Shown: positions 3,045 through 63,960 of the stretch, piece by piece | Numbering within the stretch: the stretch's first letter is position 1 | Layout: every line of letters starts with the position of its first letter | Assembly (NCBI GenBank): GCA_030847615.1 | Contig: JAUMIR010000005.1 | Coordinates: 113,985,116 to 114,049,115 of the forward strand | Direction of reading: 5' to 3' | From: Gambelia wislizenii | Lineage: Eukaryota > Chordata > Lepidosauria > Squamata > Crotaphytidae | DNA length: 64,000 bases | Program-made: the position numbers and the translations under genes | The notes under the pieces: model-generated | The model's database searches: none | Seen by the model: the letters and a program-made list of their open reading frames with translations, nothing else | Told to the model about the DNA's origin: nothing

Positions 3045-4595
3045 AGCCTAATTGACCAGGGGAAGAAGAATTCTGGACTGAAGCCAGGTACATTGTCAGG
3101 AAGAAATGCAAAAAAGACATTATCTGTATCCCAAAAGAAAGAGCTGGATGACAGATGAAACTTTTCATGCAGTTATGGACAGACTAGAAGCAAAGGTAAA
3201 AGGTGTCAGAAATAGAATCAGAACCCTGAATGAAAATGTTCAATGATTTGGGCATAGGGACAAGGAGAAGTACTATAATAATCAATACAGAGAAATAGAA
3301 GATGACAACAAAAAAGGAAGAACAAGAGACCTCTTCCACAATATCTGAGAAATCAAAGGGAAATTTAAACCAAGAATGGAGCTGCTCTAAGACCAGCTGA
3401 GGAACACATTAAATGAACAAATAGAAATAAAAAGGCAATGGAAACAATACACTGAAGAACTAGATAAAAGATGACAGATTCATTCAAAGAAGAACCATTT
3501 GAAGATGAACCTACAATTTTAGAAAGTGAAGTGGAAGCTGCACTTAGAATGCTCAGGAGAAATAAATCACCAGGAACAGATGCATACCAATAGGGTGGTT
3601 TGAAGCTAGAGAGACAGAACCTACACTCCTTCTAACTAAAATTTGTCAACAAATATGGGAGGAAATGGCCCATAGATTGGAAACACCCAATATACATCCC
3701 AGTCCCCAAGAAAGGGGACACCAGGGATTGTAGTAACCACAAGAGCATTGCATTAATTTCCTATGCAAGCAAAGTGATGCTCAAAATTCTACAACAATTT
3801 TTGCTATATATGATTTGAGAAATGGCAGATGTCCAAGCTGGGTTCAGGAAAGGAAGAGGCACTAGTAATCATATTGCAAACATATGCTAGATAATGTAAC
3901 GCACCAAAGAATTTCAGAAAAAAATCAACCTGTGCTTTATGAATTATAGCAAAAGCCAAAACTATGGATTGCTCTTAAAGGAATAGGTGTGCCACAATTT
4001 GATTGTCCTGATGCATAACCTCAGGACAAGAGGCTACCATCAGGACAGAATATGGTGAAACAGAATGATTTCTGATTGTCAAGGGAGTCAGGCAAGGTTG
4101 CATTTTATCATTCAGTCTCTTTAACTTGTATGCTGAACACATCATACTTAAAGCAGGATTCGATTTAGAGGAAGGGGGAGTGGAAATTGCAGGAAGGAAC
4201 ATCAACAATTTAAGATGTGCAGATGACACCATATTACTAGCAGAAAATAGCAAAGACTTGGAAGGATTACTGAAGAAAATCAAGAAAGAAAGTACAAAGG
4301 CAAATTTACAGTTTAACATTAAGAAAACAATAATAATAAACACTGGTGATTTACATAACTTTAAATTAGATGATGAAGACATTGAAAAAGCTCAAGATTT
4401 TCCATACCTTGGCTCAGTCATTAATCAGAATTGAGACTTCAGTCAGGAATTAGACAAGATCTTGAAGTCAAGGAATCCGCAGCCCTGAGTATGCAAGACC
4501 TGAGTAGGGCTGCTGCTGATAGTGTGACTTGGAGGTATCCCATTCATAGGGTCACCATAGGTAGAAGTCAACTGATGCCAGGTAAAAACAACATA
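3045..4595 (+). mobile_element. RTE/BovB-like LINE, RT domain to 3' end (decayed)
   Basis: Reading across frames, 3045-3480 gives the linker before RT ('YREIEDDNKKGRTRDLF', 'KQYTEEL'), 3480-3600 gives 'LRMLRRNKSPGTDAYQ', 3640-3780 gives a degraded motif 1-2 region, and ORF 4126-4434 (102 codons) gives the palm with the catalytic box as CADD (residues about 31-34), then 'FPYLGSVINQN'. These are RTE-clade signatures. The thumb/C-terminal part is deleted between about 4435 and 4490, after which the RTE 3' end resumes ('tgagtatgcaagacctgag', then 'catagggtcaccatagg'). Stops and frameshifts make it non-functional. Confidence 0.85.
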
Positions 4596-4599
4596 TTTA

Positions 4600-5620
4600 A
4601 GCATGGATTTATGAATTATTTTGTGAAGATGTGGGGTTTTTTAAGTAAAACGTTTGAAGGTTAAAGCAGAACTAGGTCAAGACAGGTTTATAAAGGCTCA
4701 CAGACAAAACTAGTGTAAGAGATTTATCCCCATCATAACCAATACTCTGTTCACCTGACCTCATTGATACAGCATTTCAAACCACTGCCTGTCTGTCATT
4801 CACAGAAGCAGAAGAGTTGCTCCTGGGGTGGGAGAAAGAAGCCACTTAAGAGCACTAGCAGAACCAAATTGTTCAGGATTCTACAGAAATTGATATAAAA
4901 ATATCCTCCCTGCATCAGTCTAGGCACAATGAGAAAAACAAGACTTAGTTAACTATGGTCCCTGTGCAATTCTCATTCTCTGAAGAAGAAGAAGTCTGAA
5001 CACACAGGAAGATATAAATAACATAAACTCACAAAAGGCTGTTGCAACCAGCACTATTAAAAAGAATCTGATAGCTTAGAGTGGCAGGCTTCTTCCCCCA
5101 CCCTTCTTCAGGAGATAAAGCAAAATGCTGAAAAACCTATTAGGTATATTTATAGTCTGAGCTTAATGTCCAAGATGCAAGATATATATTCTCTTCCAGG
5201 TGGTTCTTCAAACTAAGGCTTAAATACTTAAGACATTCCAAATCTTAATAAATAGTTCTTTGAAGATTACTTCCGTACATGTCTCTGAACAACAAGACAA
5301 AGACAATAACAATAACAATAATAATAATAATAAAAATCCCAACCTCCCAAAAAAACCCCCTCAGGTTTAAAAATGTGACATTTCAAAATAGCAGGTACCT
5401 CTTTTCCCTATGGAGACAAACAAAACTATTGAAAACTCCATTAGGGTATACTTTATGATCTCAGCTTAATGGCCAGGATTTAGCTTAGCACACATGGCTA
5501 TTGCCCTCCAACTTGAGGATTAAGAAAACTTCTTTCTGCAGCAAATGTCAGCCTTAACTCATCAAAATCCTAACAAGAATTGATCCTTTCACTTATGTAC
5601 CAGGCAATAGTTCCTTTTCC
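4600..5620. repeat. Divergent internal duplication and AAT-rich microsatellite
   Basis: Blocks at about 5110-5240 and 5400-5540 read as diverged copies of each other: each has a 'gaaaa(a)c..attagg' stretch, then 'tgagcttaatgtcca' or 'cagcttaatggcca', then a 'cttcaaactaagg' or 'ccaacttgagga' stretch. They are separated by an (AACAAT/AAT)n run at about 5300-5332. No coding potential is seen. Confidence 0.4.
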
Positions 5621-12672: not shown

Positions 12673-13106
12673 ATGAGTATTGTTAATCAGTGGGGGGGGG
12701 GGTTTGCATTGTTTTTAGAAATCTATGTGGGGATTGTGCTTAAAATTGGTCTTTTTGCCAGTCAGTGCAATAATAAAGATACCAGACACATAACATGGGT
12801 TGTAAAGGGCCACTTTATTTAAGTATACAGTTGTCCCTTCACATTCGCATGTTTCACATTCACTGTTTTGCATATTAGATCCTGGCCTCAGGAACTACAT
12901 CTCCTGGCCTCTTTTAGTCTTGCTGGTTGTTGATTTTTGTATTTTTTTTAATGTGATTTTAGTTTAGGTGGTTTTTAATTTTATACTAGTTTAATATCTT
13001 TTTATGGAGGAGGGTGGGGGTGGGTGGTGCTTAGGGATTTTAGTCAGCATTGTTGTATTTTACGTGTTGTAAGCCTCCCCAATTGTTTTTAACAGAAGGG
13101 CAGGGT

Positions 13107-13141
13107 AATAATAATAATAATAATTATTATTATTATTATTT
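13107..13141. repeat. (AAT)n/(ATT)n palindromic microsatellite
   Basis: (AAT) units followed at once by (ATT) units, so the run is self-complementary. Confidence 0.9.
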
Positions 13142-13392
13142 ACAGATTGCAGCTACTGTTCAACTAGCTCAAACACCAAGACCCCAATTCCTCCCCTCTC
13201 CTCCTGTCCTGGCAACAAAACAACTCCAGCACTGCCCATTTAAAACAGTAAGATCACTCCTTTTCCAAACCGAAGCTAAGAGTTGCAACTGTAGCAACAC
13301 ACACCCTCAGGCACAAATCATGCCCCTCACCCACACTCACCTCCCCGCCAGCGCTCCCACCCTCTGTCCTGGCAACAAAACACTCCATCTTG

Positions 13393-13395
<3 letters not shown>

Positions 13396-13425
<30 letters not shown>

Positions 13426-13450
13426 ATATTATCATTATCATTATTATTAC
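13396..13450. repeat. (ATC)n microsatellite
   Basis: About ten ATC/TCA units, then degenerate ATT units. Confidence 0.9.
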
Positions 13451-14514
13451 CTTGTAACAAAACATCATTGCCTGTTGCTTTAAACCTTACTGTTTTAAAT
13501 TGGCAGCACTGTTTTGGTGCAAGGTAAGAAAGCAAGATGGAGTTGTGTTGTTGGCAGGGCAGAGGGAGGGACAGGTGATGGAGAGGTGAGTGTGGATGAG
13601 CAGCATGGTTTGTGTGCCCGGGGCAGGTGTTCCAACCACAGTGACAGGTATTGGCAGTCCTGTTGGCTGGAGAGAAGTCTACAATACTGTAGTGTAGTAT
13701 ACATGTTGGGGGTGGGGCTTAACTTATATGCTTTTTTTTTCACTTTTGCAGTGGTATTCAACCCCTAAACCCCCAAAATGTGAAGGGACAACTGTAACCT
13801 ATTTAATCCTTCTCTGAGAGAGCTGCAATGGGGAAGCAACCTAGTATGGGAACTGTTGGGGCAGGAGGTCAGCTCTAAATACCCTTCCCCAACTTCCCTT
13901 GGATGTATATACCTGAACTTCAGGGAGAACCCATAATCTGGGTCGCTCCCAAGTCTGTCTTCATCTGGAAGGCTGACCCAAAAGTCCCTACCCCAAGCCA
14001 CAGGAATCAAAAATGGGATTTATCTCTCAGGCTGGCCCCAAAGGAGGTCACTTTCCACACACCTAAGTTTTCAGGATCTAAAGGGGCAGTTCCAGATTCC
14101 CCCTTCACCACCAAAAGGGGGGAAGTGCCAAAGATGCTTACTGAACTACCAGATCTCCCCCTCTACCTGAGAAGTGACTGCCTGTTTAAGACATCATCCT
14201 AAACCAATGATCAAGTCCTCCTCCACAATGTGGGGTAGGTGAAAAAACTCCTGGAAAGGGAGCAAAAAAAAATTCTACCTGGCCCTGAAGTGACCAATTA
14301 TATCATACTGATTCAGTGGTGGGAGGGTGGGCTGATCTGTGATGAAAAGGATGAGGAAGAGGACGGCTGGGCTTAAATACCCTCTGACCCCACCCTCTGC
14401 TCTCCTAGCAATGGCTCAGGTGCTGAGGATGAATTTCCCGGCCTCTATCCTGCATGCTGTCAAAAGGGGATTCCTTCAGCACAGCCATGTCAGAGATGGG
14501 AACCTTATTCCCAG

Positions 14515-25799: not shown

Positions 25800-26890
25800 A
25801 TAAAACAGTATTGACTTGTGCATAGAACCCTTCCTCTCAGCCCATAAGCCTTACGCACATACACTAATACTCATGCAACTCAAAATTGGTGTAAATAAAA
25901 AGGGAAGAGTCTTCTACTGCAGGGGCAGGAAATGTGAGGTGTGACTCTCATGACCCTTCTCCATTGGCTATGCAGAGTAGTGGTGATATGAAGCTATTCT
26001 TTAACATCTGAAGGACCGACATTCTCCATCACTACAATAACGCATCTAAATGCAAGTTTTATTTTCAGTGGAGTTTATCAGATGTGTGGTAACACAGCAA
26101 AAAAACTACATTCCCAACCACATTGGAAGATTGTGAGGAAAAGTGAAAGGGCTACATTATCAGACACCCACGTCCTCGGCTGTTTCTGGGGTATAGTGCT
26201 GCTCTGGACAAAGGTTCCCTTTTTCATTGATGAGGATGAGCCGCCAACACAAAGGGATGCCTTATGACCGTGCTATGCCTCCAGGGACGGTGAAGGATGA
26301 TGTTGTCTGATAATATCTCCTATTCCTGTTCTCATTGCAATCTTCTGATGTGGTTTTGCCATGTCTCATAATCTCCAATGTTTATTTACCTCAATAGCTA
26401 ATGATATTTATAGAGAATATCTCTGGTTTAAAATCACTAAGAATACAACTTTCCAAAGAAGTTTTATTACTGTGAGCATCAGCAATTAAAATCAACCTTT
26501 GGGCAGAGCACTTACTATGCCTACCATTATTCTTTTCTTTCTTATTGTGTTTTACAACAATGCAAAAAAAAGTCAACACACCTGTAAGTAAACTCATAAT
26601 AAATCCCGCTTTCAATACAGAACTAAATCTGAGGTTGTCTGTTATCCTGAAATTAATTATCCAAATAACTTACTCATCTACTCCATTACTTAATGAAATT
26701 GAGAAAGCTCCTTCTTTTGCTCTTTGGTAATATGTAAGGTTTCTCATTAAAGCAATAGTCCAAATTGGAGAATATAATGGAAAGTGATTAGAGATTTTTA
26801 AGTTTCAGTGATACATGGTCTACCCACTATTAATAAACAAGTGATTAGTTCAAGATCTTAATCAATCAGAAGAGTCTTTGATGACCAACC
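25800..26890. other. No recognisable feature
   Basis: AT-rich, short ORFs only. Confidence 0.4.
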
Positions 26891-27404
26891 ATGAAATAGC
26901 AAGACCAGACACAGATAACTGGGATGAATAAGGGCCACTTTATTTAACTTGAATCCTGTTTAGCTTAGTTGAACCTAGAAAGGAGCAAGAGGGGGAAGCA
27001 ACCTAGTGCAGTATCAGCTGAGGCCAGGTGTCACCCCTTGACTTCCTCCCAAGCCTTCCCTTGGGCAAAAACCCCTCAGTCTCAAGAGCAAACCAATAGC
27101 TACGGTAGGTTGCTCCCCAGCTGGCCATCTACTAGAAGGCAGACCAAATGCACTAACCCCCCCCCACACACACACAAGTCACAGGACTTTGTAAGTGAGA
27201 ACAACCCCCCAGGTCCACCCCAAGGGTATTCTCCTCTTCCCCATGGGTCACAGGACATAAAAAGACAGTTCCAGAGTCCTACCATTCACCAAAAGGGTGC
27301 CAAGGTGTTCATTATATGTCTTTATCTCCTCCTACTACCTGCTACAGACAAGGGGAAAGTGTCTGCTTACTGCATTTCCCCCACCAGGCCAGCCAATAGG
27401 GCAC

Positions 27405-27911
27405 TCACTGTTGCAAATCCCCCAGGAACATGTTATCAACCTCTGAAAGATGCATACCATCAGTCCTGTAGAGCACAGAATACGGAAATGCTGTGGGGGG
27501 GGGGATATGGAAGAAAGTGGCCCAACTCCTTATTGAAGGCATTCTGGATTTTCCTATTTATCCTACTACAGGCCAAATTGATGCATCTGGAATCCCCTTC
27601 ATCCCACCAAATTTGGCATGGTAAAATTGCAGACCATACCAGGATTATACCAGGTCATCTATCCTATATAACCCAAAGATCATGCAGGGCCTGGAGAATA
27701 AGGGCCTTGTATTTCAGCAAGCCCAAGTCATTTCCACTTAGGTGGGAACACGTGACGGGGAGGCCCTGGGAACTCCTCATATAAAGGAGAAAGCAACAAT
27801 TCAACAAAGGCTTCTTCTCCCAAGCCACAAAACAGTAGTGTACTTGCTCAGACCCAGTTGAGCCTCAAAATGGCAGTTCAAGGCCTGGCTTGCCAACCAG
27901 TACACCATATT
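27405..27911 (-). pseudogene. SGNH/GDSL-type hydrolase domain, copy 1
   Basis: Minus strand: 'MVYWLASQALNCHFEAQLGL' (start of the domain, after the GHS block), 'VLWLGRRSLC', then after a frameshift 'HLSGNDLGLLKYKALILQAL' with the block III GND at plus coordinates about 27727-27744, then 'PGIILVWSAILP', and finally 'LYRTDGMHLSEVDNMFLGDL' with DGMH (block V Asp-x-x-His) at 27445-27462, ending at a stop. Three in-frame stops and at least one frameshift show it is dead. The nucleophile block (GDS/GHS) is interrupted by the LTR-like insertion at 27912. Substrate unknown. Confidence 0.75.
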
Positions 27912-28338
27912 TGTCAGGGGATAATAGGACATGCAATCCCCAGCAGAAGCCCACAAATTATCTCAGCAGACTCAGTAGCAACCCTTTCCAAGAATACTCA
28001 CACCCAGAGTGTTTGACATCCAAATAAGCAGGAGGCACTTTTATCTTCAAACTCAAACAGTTGCAATATATACAAATATTTACAATTCAGGGAGAAACTG
28101 CTTCACCAGGCCTCAGCATTCACAGAAAGAAGAGAAATGAGCTCTGCTCTGAGCTCTCCCATATACACAATTACAGGATATTGGCTTACTCAATCACATG
28201 ATCTTACACACCAGTAAGAACCATCCTTCTGTAGCTAAGGAAGACTAGGTAGTTCATGGAATCTGCCATTATGATTCAGCATGACTCTGCAGTTTGTTTG
28301 GCCATTTTATAATGGAGTTCAGTCACCAACTCCTGACA
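27912..28338. mobile_element. Solo-LTR-like insertion inside the SGNH domain
   Basis: A 427 bp segment begins TGTCAGGGG and ends CTCCTGACA, i.e. short inverted TGTCAGG ends typical of LTRs. The Ngaro-like coding sequence is continuous when it is removed ('ctgatctgtggcctgctctat' on one side and 'atggtgtactggttggcaa' on the other, as in the uninterrupted copy at 63.8 kb). Flanking 4-5 bp (ATATT / ATAGA) are similar but not identical, so the TSD is uncertain. Confidence 0.65.
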
Positions 28339-28389
28339 ATAGAGCAGGCCACAGATCAGGACCCACAACTTTCCAGATCAACTCTAGAA

Positions 28390-28750
28390 TCTTTTAAAAA
28401 TGACAACATTAGTAAACAACACAAAAACATGTTTAAAACATAAGAGGTCAGACATACCTCTTAAATGCACTGAATCTCCAACATCCAATACACTGGAAAA
28501 ACTCTGAGCCCAGAAACACGGCAGAAGCCATCCTGAAGGAGTGAGTCCCAAACTTAATGCCCTGTAGGCCAAAGCTCTGCAAGGCCTTTGAGATAATACA
28601 ATCCGAATTTGGTTAGGGGTGAAAAGTCCATATGACAAAACAACAAACCTGGGCTAATACCTCTGATCCATACATAATTCTGGAGTGCCTGCACAAGGCA
28701 TAAAGTCATGTCCATGCACCTCCCCAGATACTCCCCCCCCCTTTAATCTA
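28390..28750 (-). pseudogene. Tyrosine recombinase catalytic part (Ngaro/DIRS-like)
   Basis: Reading the minus strand across two frames gives 'LVQALQNYVWIRGISPG.LFCHMDFSPLT', then 'GLQGIKFGTHSFRMASAV', then 'GCWRFSAFKRYV' followed by a stop. THSFR (plus coordinates about 28529-28546) is the H-x-x-R box of tyrosine recombinases; 'GCWRFSAFKRYV' corresponds to the G-(R/H)-W..S..(F/Y)..Y segment near the catalytic tyrosine. The Cys in GCW replaces the usual Arg. The upstream Arg box is not seen. One frameshift lies between the two halves. The element enzyme would integrate circular DNA by recombination, without an integrase. Confidence 0.75.
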
Positions 28751-28759
28751 CCTTGGGAT

Positions 28760-29400
28760 CCTAGTGTCATCATCTACACCCCAAAAGGAATGGCTCCATA
28801 GGTCACACCACTATAGGCACTACTGTATGGCTGCTGCATGTTCATCCTATCGACATACGACCATTGCTACAGATATGGTTCCTGATAAGGTTCTGCAAAT
28901 AGAAATAATAAGGGATGGGTATCTGTGCATGGCTAGCATCATATCCCTGTTGAAAGGGCATCCTAACATCCAGTTACAACTTCCTGCACTCTCCTACAGG
29001 GACCAGAACCCCAGGGCTACTCTAAACCCCAATGGCCAACAATTAACCATAGACAATTTATTCATATATTTTCACTCCACATGTTAAATCTTAACCCAAT
29101 CATAGAGCACTGCTTTAAGTCACATCAAACACAAAAACACATTTCCTGGTGGCTTGATTTTTGCATCTGTGTGGGCCCATGCCACTTTTACCATATGCTC
29201 CCAATCACACATGAACCAATACCCAAATCTGTACATTTAACCATCTGGTAGAGTTAAATATTGATACCAGTCTTAAAGATGAGGTGTGTCCTGCCTGATT
29301 TTATACTTATATTATTTGGGGTATTCATGATTAAGCAGGCTGAAACTTAATTGAACTAATAAAAATACCAACTGAAAGAGATTTGTTTCTTCATAGCTAT
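28760..29400. other. Unassigned; possibly upstream part of the Ngaro-like element
   Basis: Lies on the 5' side of the antisense recombinase. I could not find the reverse transcriptase, RNase H or recombinase Arg box here. Confidence 0.3.
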
Positions 29401-29407
29401 GGAAGAA

Positions 29408-29652
29408 CTGTTGTTGTTGTGTACCTTCAAGTCATTTCCAAGTTATGGTGACCCGAAGGCAAACCTAGCACAGAGGGGTTTTCTAGCAAGATTTGTTCAG
29501 AAGGGGCTTGCCTTTACTTTCCTCTGAGGCTGAGAAGGTGTGACTTGCCCAAGGTTACTCAGTGGGTTTCAGTGAGGCTGAGTAGGGATTCAAACCCTGG
29601 TTGCCAGAATTGTAGCCCAGTACTCAAACCACTATACCATGCTTTCTTCTTT
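29408..29652 (-). mobile_element. Sauria-type SINE, full length (antisense)
   Basis: The reverse complement starts with a tRNA-like head ('catggtatagtggtttgagtactgggctacaattctggcaaccagggtttgaatccc', B box GGTTTGAATCC), has the central 'cactgagtaaccttgggcaagtcacaccttctcagcctcagagg' and ends 'gggtcaccataacttggaaatgacttgaaggtacac' plus (AAC)n. The tail matches RTE/BovB 3' ends such as 4540-4585. Flanks carry an 8 bp direct repeat TGGAAGAA (29400-29407 and 29653-29660). Confidence 0.9.
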
Positions 29653-55249: not shown

Positions 55250-56115
55250 GGCCATGGGTCCTTCTTATACACCCCCTCAAACATACATGGGTAATAACCT
55301 GGTGTACTCTGTAATCTCATGGTCCACCATTAACTGGACAGATAATCTGACCAAGAAGACTCACTCAGACTCACCTCTCCCATATGCCCTGCAACTTAGA
55401 ATTTAGCTGATGGCCAGGATCAGGTCAGCTTCAAAGGTCATTCATCTCCTCACACCTGAGCACCACACAAATTAAAGAACCCCCTTTTACCCAAAAGGTT
55501 CTCCTACCCACCAATAACCTGAACCTTACCACTTATCACTTTGTCACCCTATCCCACCACCTGAGAAGCAAGGAGTACCTTAGCTCCAAGGCCCCACCAG
55601 GCCATCTAAGATGGTTCTAAGGCTACACTTCAGGTTTCTAAGGGAAATGTTGTTCCATGTTACCAAATTATGCACCCCATCACCCCTGCAAAGCTCTGGA
55701 CAGTCACCAGCTGGGCTAGGAAGATTTCCAGGCTTCCAGCCATGGTTTTCTTCAATTCCCAATTAACCTTGTATTGTGCCTTATTGAGGCAGTATGAGTC
55801 TCCTTCCCCCTTCCTTTGGCACCTGGGAGGTAGGGCAGAAAACACTAGACCCATCCCTGGCCACATCTTTTGCAACCTGGATAGATCTTTCCCCACCTGT
55901 ATAATTAATGCTTTCCCCTTAATGAGCCACATGTCATTTCCCCTGGTGTCCTTCTTGCACCAGCAGCAGAAGCAGGGCCAACCATCTCATATCTCTCTGG
56001 CCCAGCCATTCCACCATGGTCACTGTGGACATCCCCAACTGGGAACTCACTGCTGAGCCTGACTGGTTGCCCAATAGATGTACTTCATGCAGTATTTTTA
56101 CTTCCAGGGCCAAAA
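55250..56115 (-). mobile_element. Ngaro/DIRS-like remnant with SGNH hydrolase, copy 2
   Basis: The SGNH domain lies at 56110-55590 on the minus strand, followed by its 3' non-coding side down to about 55250. No recombinase or RT part is seen on its 5' side. Confidence 0.65.
55585..56110 (-). pseudogene. SGNH/GDSL-type hydrolase domain, copy 2
   Basis: Minus strand gives 'YIYWATSQA' (start of the domain), 'QLGMSTVTMVEWLGQRDMRW', then 'RGNDMWLIKGKALIIQ' with block III GND (plus 55931-55950), 'MWPGMGLVFSALPPR', and 'CRGDGVHNLVTWNNISLRNL' with block V DGVH (plus 55670-55681). The parts are in different frames. The block layout equals copies 1 and 3. His before the RGND is replaced, but Asp and His of DGVH are kept. 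Confidence 0.7.
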
Positions 56116-62654: not shown

Positions 62655-63960
62655 GCCTTTGCTGACCAACCATGGGAATAAAGAAACCAGGCACAGAAAT
62701 TGGGTTGAAATGGGGCACTTTATTTTAACTATAAACCTAGTTAACCTTTGACCCCTGAGAGAGGCAAAAGGAAAGAACAACCTAACGTGGGAGCAGCTGA
62801 GGCAGGTGATCTCGTTCTGACCTCCTCCCCAGCTTTCCCTGGGCAGAACACTGGAGTCCCAAGGAGAACCCAAAAGCTGGATTGCTTCCCAGCCAGCCTG
62901 CAACTGGAAGACCAACCTGACAAACCTGTCACATGACTGACAGTGAGGGCTCAGCTCTCACGCTAGCCCCAAGGAAAGTCTCCTTTCCCACCCCAGAGTA
63001 ACATGACCTAAAGAGGCAGTTCCAGAGCCTTTCCCTTTACCAAATGGGTGCCGGTGTTCACCAAATTCCTTCTCTCCCCCCCACTACCTGCCACTAATAA
63101 GGGGAAATCATCTTACCAATCCAAAAGTAAAGGATCATGGTGAGTAGGGTGTCCAGTCCAGTCCAAAAGTCAAAGTCTAGGCAAGGCAACATGAGTGTTC
63201 AGGATGCAGTTCCCCACCAATGCAGTCAGATAAACTCTGACAAGTTGGCAGAGCAGCCATCCCTGATTTATACTAGCTCAGAGACCATACAGCTGTCCTC
63301 TGATAGCTTGGCATCTCTCATAAATAAGCTGAGATTTCTCCTCCCTTTGGTGCCAGCATTTTTGAAAGGTGGGTACTACTGGGTATAATATCTCTCCATC
63401 TGAAGGGCCAGGCCTCTCTGCTGGGTCTGGGTTAGCTGTTCTGTCCCCTTCTGCTATCTCTGAGGGGCTAGGCAGCTCTGCAGGGTCAAGTGCTCTCTAC
63501 TCCCTGAAGCAGATCCTGCTCTGAAGCTCTTCCCTACTCTAGTTCATCTTCTGAGTAAGAATAGCAGGGTCTGCCACCCCAAGCCAGTTGATCCTCATAT
63601 CATGAATTGCTTGAATAATAAGGGCCTTGCCCTTCAACAAATCTAGGTCATTACCCACCAAGTGAATGACCAGAATGTGCGGTGGATTCGTCTTGCACTC
63701 CCCAAACAACATTGGCATCAGGCCATGCCACCAAAGACCCCTCTATCCAAGCTACATGACCATAGCCAGATTGATCAGTCCCAGATGGAATCTGAAATGG
63801 CAGCTGCAGGCTTAGTGCACCACCCAATAGATTATATTATGCCCACAGATCAGGACTCAATGCCTCACTGGCAATAACGTAGAATCTACAAGAAACCACA
63901 AAAGCAACAGCACAGCACATTAATATTGAAAAGGACAAACACATTTGGTTAGTCTTGCTT
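62655..63960 (-). mobile_element. Ngaro/DIRS-like remnant with SGNH hydrolase, copy 3
   Basis: The 3' non-coding end (62655-63120) matches 26895-27340 ('gctgaccaaccatg', 'ggcactttatttt', 'agaggcagttccagagcct', 'ccaaatgggtgcc', 'actacctgcca'). A middle part (63140-63590) is specific to this copy. The SGNH domain follows at 63890-63590. The element may continue past the window end. Confidence 0.7.
63590..63890 (-). pseudogene. SGNH/GDSL-type hydrolase domain, copy 3
   Basis: One minus-strand frame gives 'ICGHNIIYWVVH' (block I, normally GHS/GDS, here GHN), 'FHLGLINLAMVM', 'GLWWHGLMPMLFGE', then 'PPHILVIHLVGNDLDLLKGK' with the block III GND (plus 63641-63672), and 'ALIIQAIHDM'. Three stops interrupt it. 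It covers blocks I to III; block V is not found downstream. It is the only copy with block I to III contiguous, because copy 1 is split by an LTR-like insertion. Confidence 0.75.

Follow-up and report, generated by a model that had tools for sequence, protein, structure and literature searches.

Very probable remains of a dead, internally deleted Ngaro-like tyrosine recombinase retrotransposon with an SGNH hydrolase in Gambelia wislizenii

We have analyzed 64,000 nucleotides of the Gambelia wislizenii genome (contig JAUMIR010000005.1; hereafter the window) and describe the 3' half of a decayed retrotransposon, copy A, which taken as a whole is very probably a dead, internally deleted copy of a Ngaro-like tyrosine recombinase (YR) retrotransposon. 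Copy A contains, in order, the recombinase C-terminus, an SGNH hydrolase and a terminal repeat. A sequence-only reading had proposed an antisense Ngaro-type element with a hydrolase after its recombinase at 26895-28760. That class is supported by sister copies elsewhere in the genome, by a near-intact relative (L050) and by PMC9210276; the locus was right, its actual span is 26877-28728 (28914 with one scrap), and "antisense" holds in the sense of the minus strand only. Ngaro-like elements with SGNH after the YR are already known in amphibians (PMC9210276, in excerpt). New here are codon-phase support for past selection on the hydrolase and an ORF1-encoded protein as its best solved-structure match. 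Ngaro has been stated to be absent from lizards (PMC4746887, in excerpt), which would not hold for squamates as a whole. A squamate host also accords with the snake source of the closest named RT homologue and with a squamate-like SINE repeat in the window. The parts of copy A and the insertion within it are as follows.

26877-28728, with one scrap to 28914, minus strand: copy A, 3' half of a decayed Ngaro-like YR retrotransposon
28782-28914, minus strand: scrap from the 5' region of the element, ahead of pol (72% over 134 columns against L035 3747-3877)
28439-28728, minus strand: tyrosine recombinase, C-terminal part, in two frames (tblastn of the L050 YR ORF)
28407-28409, minus strand: ATG inside the TTTACTAATG box that lies between the YR and the hydrolase, possible start of the hydrolase ORF
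28339-28409, minus strand: N-terminal end of the SGNH hydrolase, on the upstream side of the inserted LTR (aligned with copies that carry the CGHSMVYW block)
27912-28338, minus strand: Ty1/copia-type solo LTR (TGTCAGG...CCTGACA) with flanks TCTAT/AATAT, in the catalytic-Ser block of the hydrolase
27408-27911, minus strand: remainder of the SGNH hydrolase, with stops and frame changes (tblastn of the L050 SGNH ORF)
26877-27311, minus strand: terminal repeat B and common 3' end (...GGTTGGTCATCAAA), without poly-A

The motifs that had suggested a recombinase box on the minus strand, THSFR and GCWRFSAFKRYV, share one stop-free piece of that strand (28451-28612), and the pattern HSFR(14-32)W(2-5)A[FYW]..Y stands above chance, occurring once in the window versus never in 100 Markov-sampled 64-kb windows. 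A looser H..R...W...Y pattern was below expectation in the window (3 seen vs 5.4 expected). For the hydrolase, HL.GND occurs twice (the second time in another relic, at 63.6 kb) versus never in 60 sampled windows, and [RK].DG[MV]HL occurs once versus a mean of 0.017 in sampled windows; GND by itself carries no signal (10 seen vs 6.3 expected). Pfam searches of nine stop-free window pieces gave no YR, SGNH or RT match, and searches of decayed pieces with Pfam and NCBIfam gave only weak matches, to unrelated families. The decayed sequence of the window alone is insufficient to prove the domains, and the proof comes from relatives: the Pfam check proposed in the earlier reading yields nothing for the decayed pieces on their own and succeeds for the family by way of L050.

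L050 was found through P0001, an RT protein, in one of the family searches that were run across the 2.47 Gb genome holding the window. At least 83 scored places (83 scored of 16755 loose candidates) match P0001 at 62-65% identity over nearly its full length; their open frames span 594 to 1144 aa, and 26 of the 83 have no stop inside the match. So many largely open Ngaro-like RT-RH frames suggest recent activity. One of these places is L050, of which 6.5 kb was read. Its RT-RH frame of 617 aa is followed downstream by a tyrosine recombinase on the same strand and then by an SGNH frame of 232 aa; because its YR is spread over two overlapping frames, L050 itself is not whole. In Pfam its RT matches RVT_1 (E 1e-11), its YR matches Phage_integrase above the curated cut-off (E 1.4e-8) and its SGNH protein, which has GHS, GGND and DGVH blocks, matches Lipase_GDSL_2 at E 1.2e-6, 3.3 bits below the curated cut-off (29.6 vs 32.9 bits). 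A solved-structure search with the L050 YR ORF returned no relevant match.

The YR and SGNH proteins of L050 match the window copy in order. Its YR ORF aligns by tblastn at 43-45% identity (E 2.1e-9 and 2.6e-10) in two frames, with five residues missing after HSFR, which reads from 28543 downwards; the Tyr in FKRYV is presumed catalytic. Its SGNH ORF aligns with the window hydrolase at 49-50% identity (E 3.3e-27), a result that upholds the proposed SGNH domain with GND and DGMH blocks downstream of the YR. The blocks themselves are HLSGND at 27744-27727 and RTDGMHL at 27467-27447, and the P0012 protein matches 27408-27911 as well (E 3e-19). Reversed L050 proteins, used as a control, had no match in the window at E 0.01. 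The hydrolase architecture had rightly been called recognizable, while the copia-type solo LTR that splits the hydrolase had gone unseen.

Sister copies of the element are numerous. With 28344-28900 as query, at least 41 stretches match, one of them the query itself and 40 others with 65-81% identity (best 40 scored of 117 loose candidates), and a query of the hydrolase-bearing 3' half, 26860-27908, gave at least 44 including itself (best 40 scored of 3639 loose first-look candidates). DNA homology to the YR part (28439-28728) is present in 20 of 20 fetched copies, which had been picked by a search with the YR-region stretch itself, and most of them show collinear YR and hydrolase regions. Strict patterns were found at the expected place for HS[FL]R in 5, W.S.A..Y in 4, GND in 4 and DGxH in 4 of the 20 copies, all four together in L022 only. 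At the Arg position of H-x-x-R, 6 of 21 old copies have Trp, a change that would be compatible with CpG decay of a CGG codon. At the other end, the match stops within 26874-26882 in 15 of the 20 copies, and no poly-A was seen there in these 15.

The RT-RNase H half, which had been suggested as something to look for upstream in the host-genome family, is present in sister copies and deleted in the window copy. About 1-2 kb upstream of the YR is common to up to 13 other copies and encodes RT and RNase H; within the window RT-RNase H was not found, the best match of P0001 having E 0.53. A stop-free 299-aa piece of the old-family RT had 11 homologues among 529 candidates, the closest named one from the snake Erythrolamprus reginae; 8 of the 11 carry a precomputed PF00078 (RVT_1) assignment, and Pfam confirmed RVT_1 in 4 of 4 homologues tested. 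RNase H was assigned by homology to P0001/P0002, with RVT_3 appearing below cut-off only. The old SGNH piece had one homologue among 359 candidates (P0012), and the old YR piece had one among 611 (P0013, from the owl Tyto alba); in Pfam both fell below cut-off, P0012 for Lipase_GDSL_2 at 0.016 and P0013 for Phage_integrase at 0.23. Solved-structure searches with the L035 RT piece, the L023 SGNH piece and alignments A3 and A4 gave no relevant match. The AlphaFold predictions made for P0013 and for P0012 combined with window pieces had pLDDT values of 39.7 and 51.9, too low to be of use.

The extent of the deletion can be estimated from the scrap at 28782-28914, which within the fetched set of 20 is matched by L035 alone. 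Its counterpart, L035 3747-3877, lies ~2.5 kb ahead of the point where the L035 YR ends. In the window, the next match after the scrap end at 28782 begins at 28728. Judged by this one copy, ~2.4 kb comprising RT, RNase H and the YR N-terminus would be missing between the two, and the scrap therefore adjoins the YR part. Under the model for Ngaro elements, the A and B repeats would serve RT-RH in copying the RNA, and integration of a circular copy would be the work of the recombinase, through its H-x-x-R...Y site. Copy A is incapable of these steps, with pol missing, YR and hydrolase broken and a copia-type LTR in the serine block.

The terminal repeats fit the same class. L050 carries a direct repeat (B1 4112-4551, B2 4896-5335; 99.5% over 440 bp) in the 3' structure B1-A2-B2, and repeat B of the window has its counterpart as B in L050. 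In the old family, L048 has B twice, flanking a 430-bp A sequence, and the same B-A-B order fits C44:171944436-171945558 and C22:211070861-211071705 by coordinates only. The first third of A is found upstream in L020, L021, L027 and L041, at varying distances and in the element's orientation, and the end of A precedes B in L049. A contrary observation is that L028 matches a different part of A in reverse orientation (E 7e-9), and a direct search for A1 inside each old copy gave nothing convincing. Together, the repeats of L050 and the old family appear to be split direct repeats of Ngaro type as these are described in PMC9210276, PMC6681497 and PMC4157794 (all in excerpt), the putative A1 side consisting of A-like upstream sequence in four old copies. 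Many genome matches hold the end of A plus B, L049, read over 1.6 kb, being one. Such matches are perhaps stand-alone repeat units, i.e. recombination products or short non-autonomous elements.

The hydrolase may be expressed by separate translation, splicing or frameshift. Of 19 aligned old-family copies, 10 have the exact TTTACTAATG box, which in copies read by eye follows the YR-ending TGA at a distance of some 21-24 bases; L050 has no such box. It is possible, though we do not favor it, that the hydrolase is no independent ORF and that its product arises from the YR ORF or a leader, through splicing or frameshift. L050 lends itself to this reading, with no ATG in its SGNH frame before the catalytic Ser block and with its YR stop closely followed by TTTTGTCTTCCAG, a run of pyrimidines with CAG; the old family in turn has TACTAAT and TTCTAG between YR and hydrolase. 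A mini-intron with donor AGGTATGT was considered as a form of splicing. Against these points, 13 of the 19 old copies have an ATG in the box, which in several of those read by eye shares the hydrolase frame, the GT of the sole donor considered is altered in 11 of the 19 (by an identical G to A in 7), and the young-copy evidence comes from one copy, L050.

Old and young copies appear side by side in this genome, so that selection on the hydrolase can be tested from sequence alone. Codon phase was assessed by setting all-pairs differences at third codon positions against those at first and second, after exclusion of the reference copy, and by comparison with 5000 permutations of the sites. Four SGNH pieces, each with 20-24 copies, had third-position excess ratios of 1.36, 1.25, 1.48 and 1.28 (6, 35, 0 and 18 of 5000 permutations, respectively), values to be read with the limits that pieces partly overlap, copies are related and stop-free pieces were chosen. 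Ratios were 1.42 for RNase H (0 of 5000; 11 copies) and 1.36 for YR-N (0 of 5000; 16 copies), and weaker for YR-C (1.16; 232 of 5000; 23 copies) and RT (1.15; 705 of 5000; 5 copies). Twelve control tests on the 3'UTR ranged over 0.91-1.16, the highest leaning to phase 3 (119 of 5000). A codon test built on a guide protein, whose choice of sites is biased by protein similarity, yielded third-position ratios of 1.30-1.42 and a flat UTR. A codon test against single references was set aside, as the UTR control also scored 1.49. The codon-phase result supports past selection on the hydrolase and is not proof of it.

We consider it unlikely that the hydrolase was a passenger under no selection. The old-family copies read are all decayed, and some Ngaro elements have no hydrolase, as a passenger would allow. 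Opposed to this are the excess of third-position change in each of the four SGNH pieces where the UTR controls are nearly flat, the open 232-aa SGNH frame of L050 and the retention of catalytic residues somewhat above the column average (Ser in 18 of 24, Asn in 15 of 18, Asp in 17 of 21 and His in 17 of 20 copies, against a mean column majority of 0.68 to 0.73).

Amphibian Ngaro-like elements combine RT/RH, YR, SGNH and split direct repeats (PMC9210276, in excerpt). DIRS-53_XT and its relatives, the amphibian Ngaro elements with Hydro-SGNH in the same excerpt, resemble the present family in RT/RH-YR-SGNH order, in what appear to be split direct repeats and in having no methyltransferase domain, none being found by Pfam in the four L050 ORF stretches scanned. 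They differ in host and in that the window copy is old, dead and internally deleted. A PAT- or DIRS1-like rather than Ngaro-like element is very unlikely: PAT elements also have split direct repeats (PMC4157794, in excerpt) and, without a tree, RT and YR alone do not separate the groups, but the scanned L050 stretches have no methyltransferase domain, no inverted repeats of at least 40 bp lie within the 6.5 kb of L050 and the SGNH domain follows the YR as in amphibian Ngaro (PMC9210276, in excerpt).

SGNH domains also occur as an extra ORF (GDSL ORF3) in bdelloid LTR elements and Athena (PMC5408684, in excerpt). These belong to other element classes, and the word DIRS is absent from the PMC5408684 text. 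Among the titles listed in the literature search, none addressed the Ngaro hydrolase of a squamate or how such an enzyme relates to the LINE esterase.

Among solved structures, the best match of the L050 SGNH protein is 4c1b, an ORF1-encoded protein (E 4e-7), which we take to be the zebrafish L2 LINE esterase; two ribosomal-protein chains (0.04-0.06) and then the next SGNH entry (0.16) follow. If 4c1b is indeed that esterase, ZfL2-1 is the nearest structural match of this hydrolase, a point in favor of the SGNH stretch being a relic of a CR1/L2-type LINE that lies beside a recombinase relic by chance. That reading is extremely improbable and in our view refuted, because all parts occur in one near-intact element, L050, and YR and hydrolase are collinear in most of the 20 copies; moreover, RT-RH lies upstream of the YR, and the hydrolase is at the 3' end here versus in ORF1 for LINE esterases (PMC3905857, in excerpt). 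The CR1/L2 LINE ORF1 esterase ZfL2-1 is like the Ngaro-like element of the window in being an SGNH domain within a retrotransposon, and differs in that the LINE has no YR and has its esterase, with a coiled coil, in ORF1 before pol (PMC3905857, in excerpt).

The sequence-only reading had stated that Ngaro-type elements carry such a hydrolase for an unresolved purpose, and the literature agrees: excerpts of PMC9210276 and PMC6681497 give no proven or known function for YR retrotransposon hydrolases. Membrane targeting with slow lipid cleavage has been proposed for the LINE esterase (PMC3905857, in excerpt). By analogy with it, a lipid- or acyl-directed accessory role of the hydrolase is most likely: the enzyme would bind or cleave lipids or acyl groups and, in the manner suggested for the LINE ORF1 esterase, would assist in assembling particles or in transport linked to membranes. 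We tentatively raise the possibility, which we hold to be the less probable side of the question, that a hydrolase kept by selection worked in the transposition cycle, belonged to the SGNH lineage of the LINE ORF1 esterase and was transferred between element classes. If this were true, unrelated retrotransposons would have one lipid-directed step in common. As the PDB may hold few SGNH proteins of other retroelements, closeness to 4c1b is no proof of common descent.

The solo LTR (28338-27912) has 91-93% identity to at least 39 other places among the matches listed. In L009 and L010, paired LTRs surround a copia-type gag-pol, the class of whose proteins is presumed from their motifs. The copia-type element to which the LTR belongs, also seen in L011, is high-copy with LTRs of about 430 bp. 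No LTR is present at the insertion point in 16 of 16 copies readable across it (of the 20). In these uninserted copies the site reads GGCCATAGTATGG or a close variant, with AGT encoding the serine of the GHS block, which places the LTR insertion within the catalytic-serine block. The two flanks of the LTR, TCTAT and AATAT, share 3 of their 5 letters.

Three further relics of Ngaro-like elements lie in the window, all on the minus strand.

62657-63919, minus strand: relic B, SGNH hydrolase and terminal repeat of the copy A family (67% DNA identity over 490 columns, E 3e-30)
55592-56056, minus strand: relic D, SGNH hydrolase of a more distant subfamily (P0012 41% over 75 aa, E 1e-15)
12772-14331, minus strand: relic C, A repeat (14331-14231), then a broken B repeat (14118-13893 and 12822-12772)

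The L050 SGNH protein matches relic B at 63.9-63.6 kb (55%, E 2e-29) and relic D (E 8e-12), and A2 of L050 matches the A repeat of relic C (75% over 102 columns, E 4e-11). A SINE-like repeat at 29411-29651, in which ARAGORN found no tRNA gene and which resembles a squamate SINE, has 73-79% identity to pieces in L024, L027, L028 and L038.
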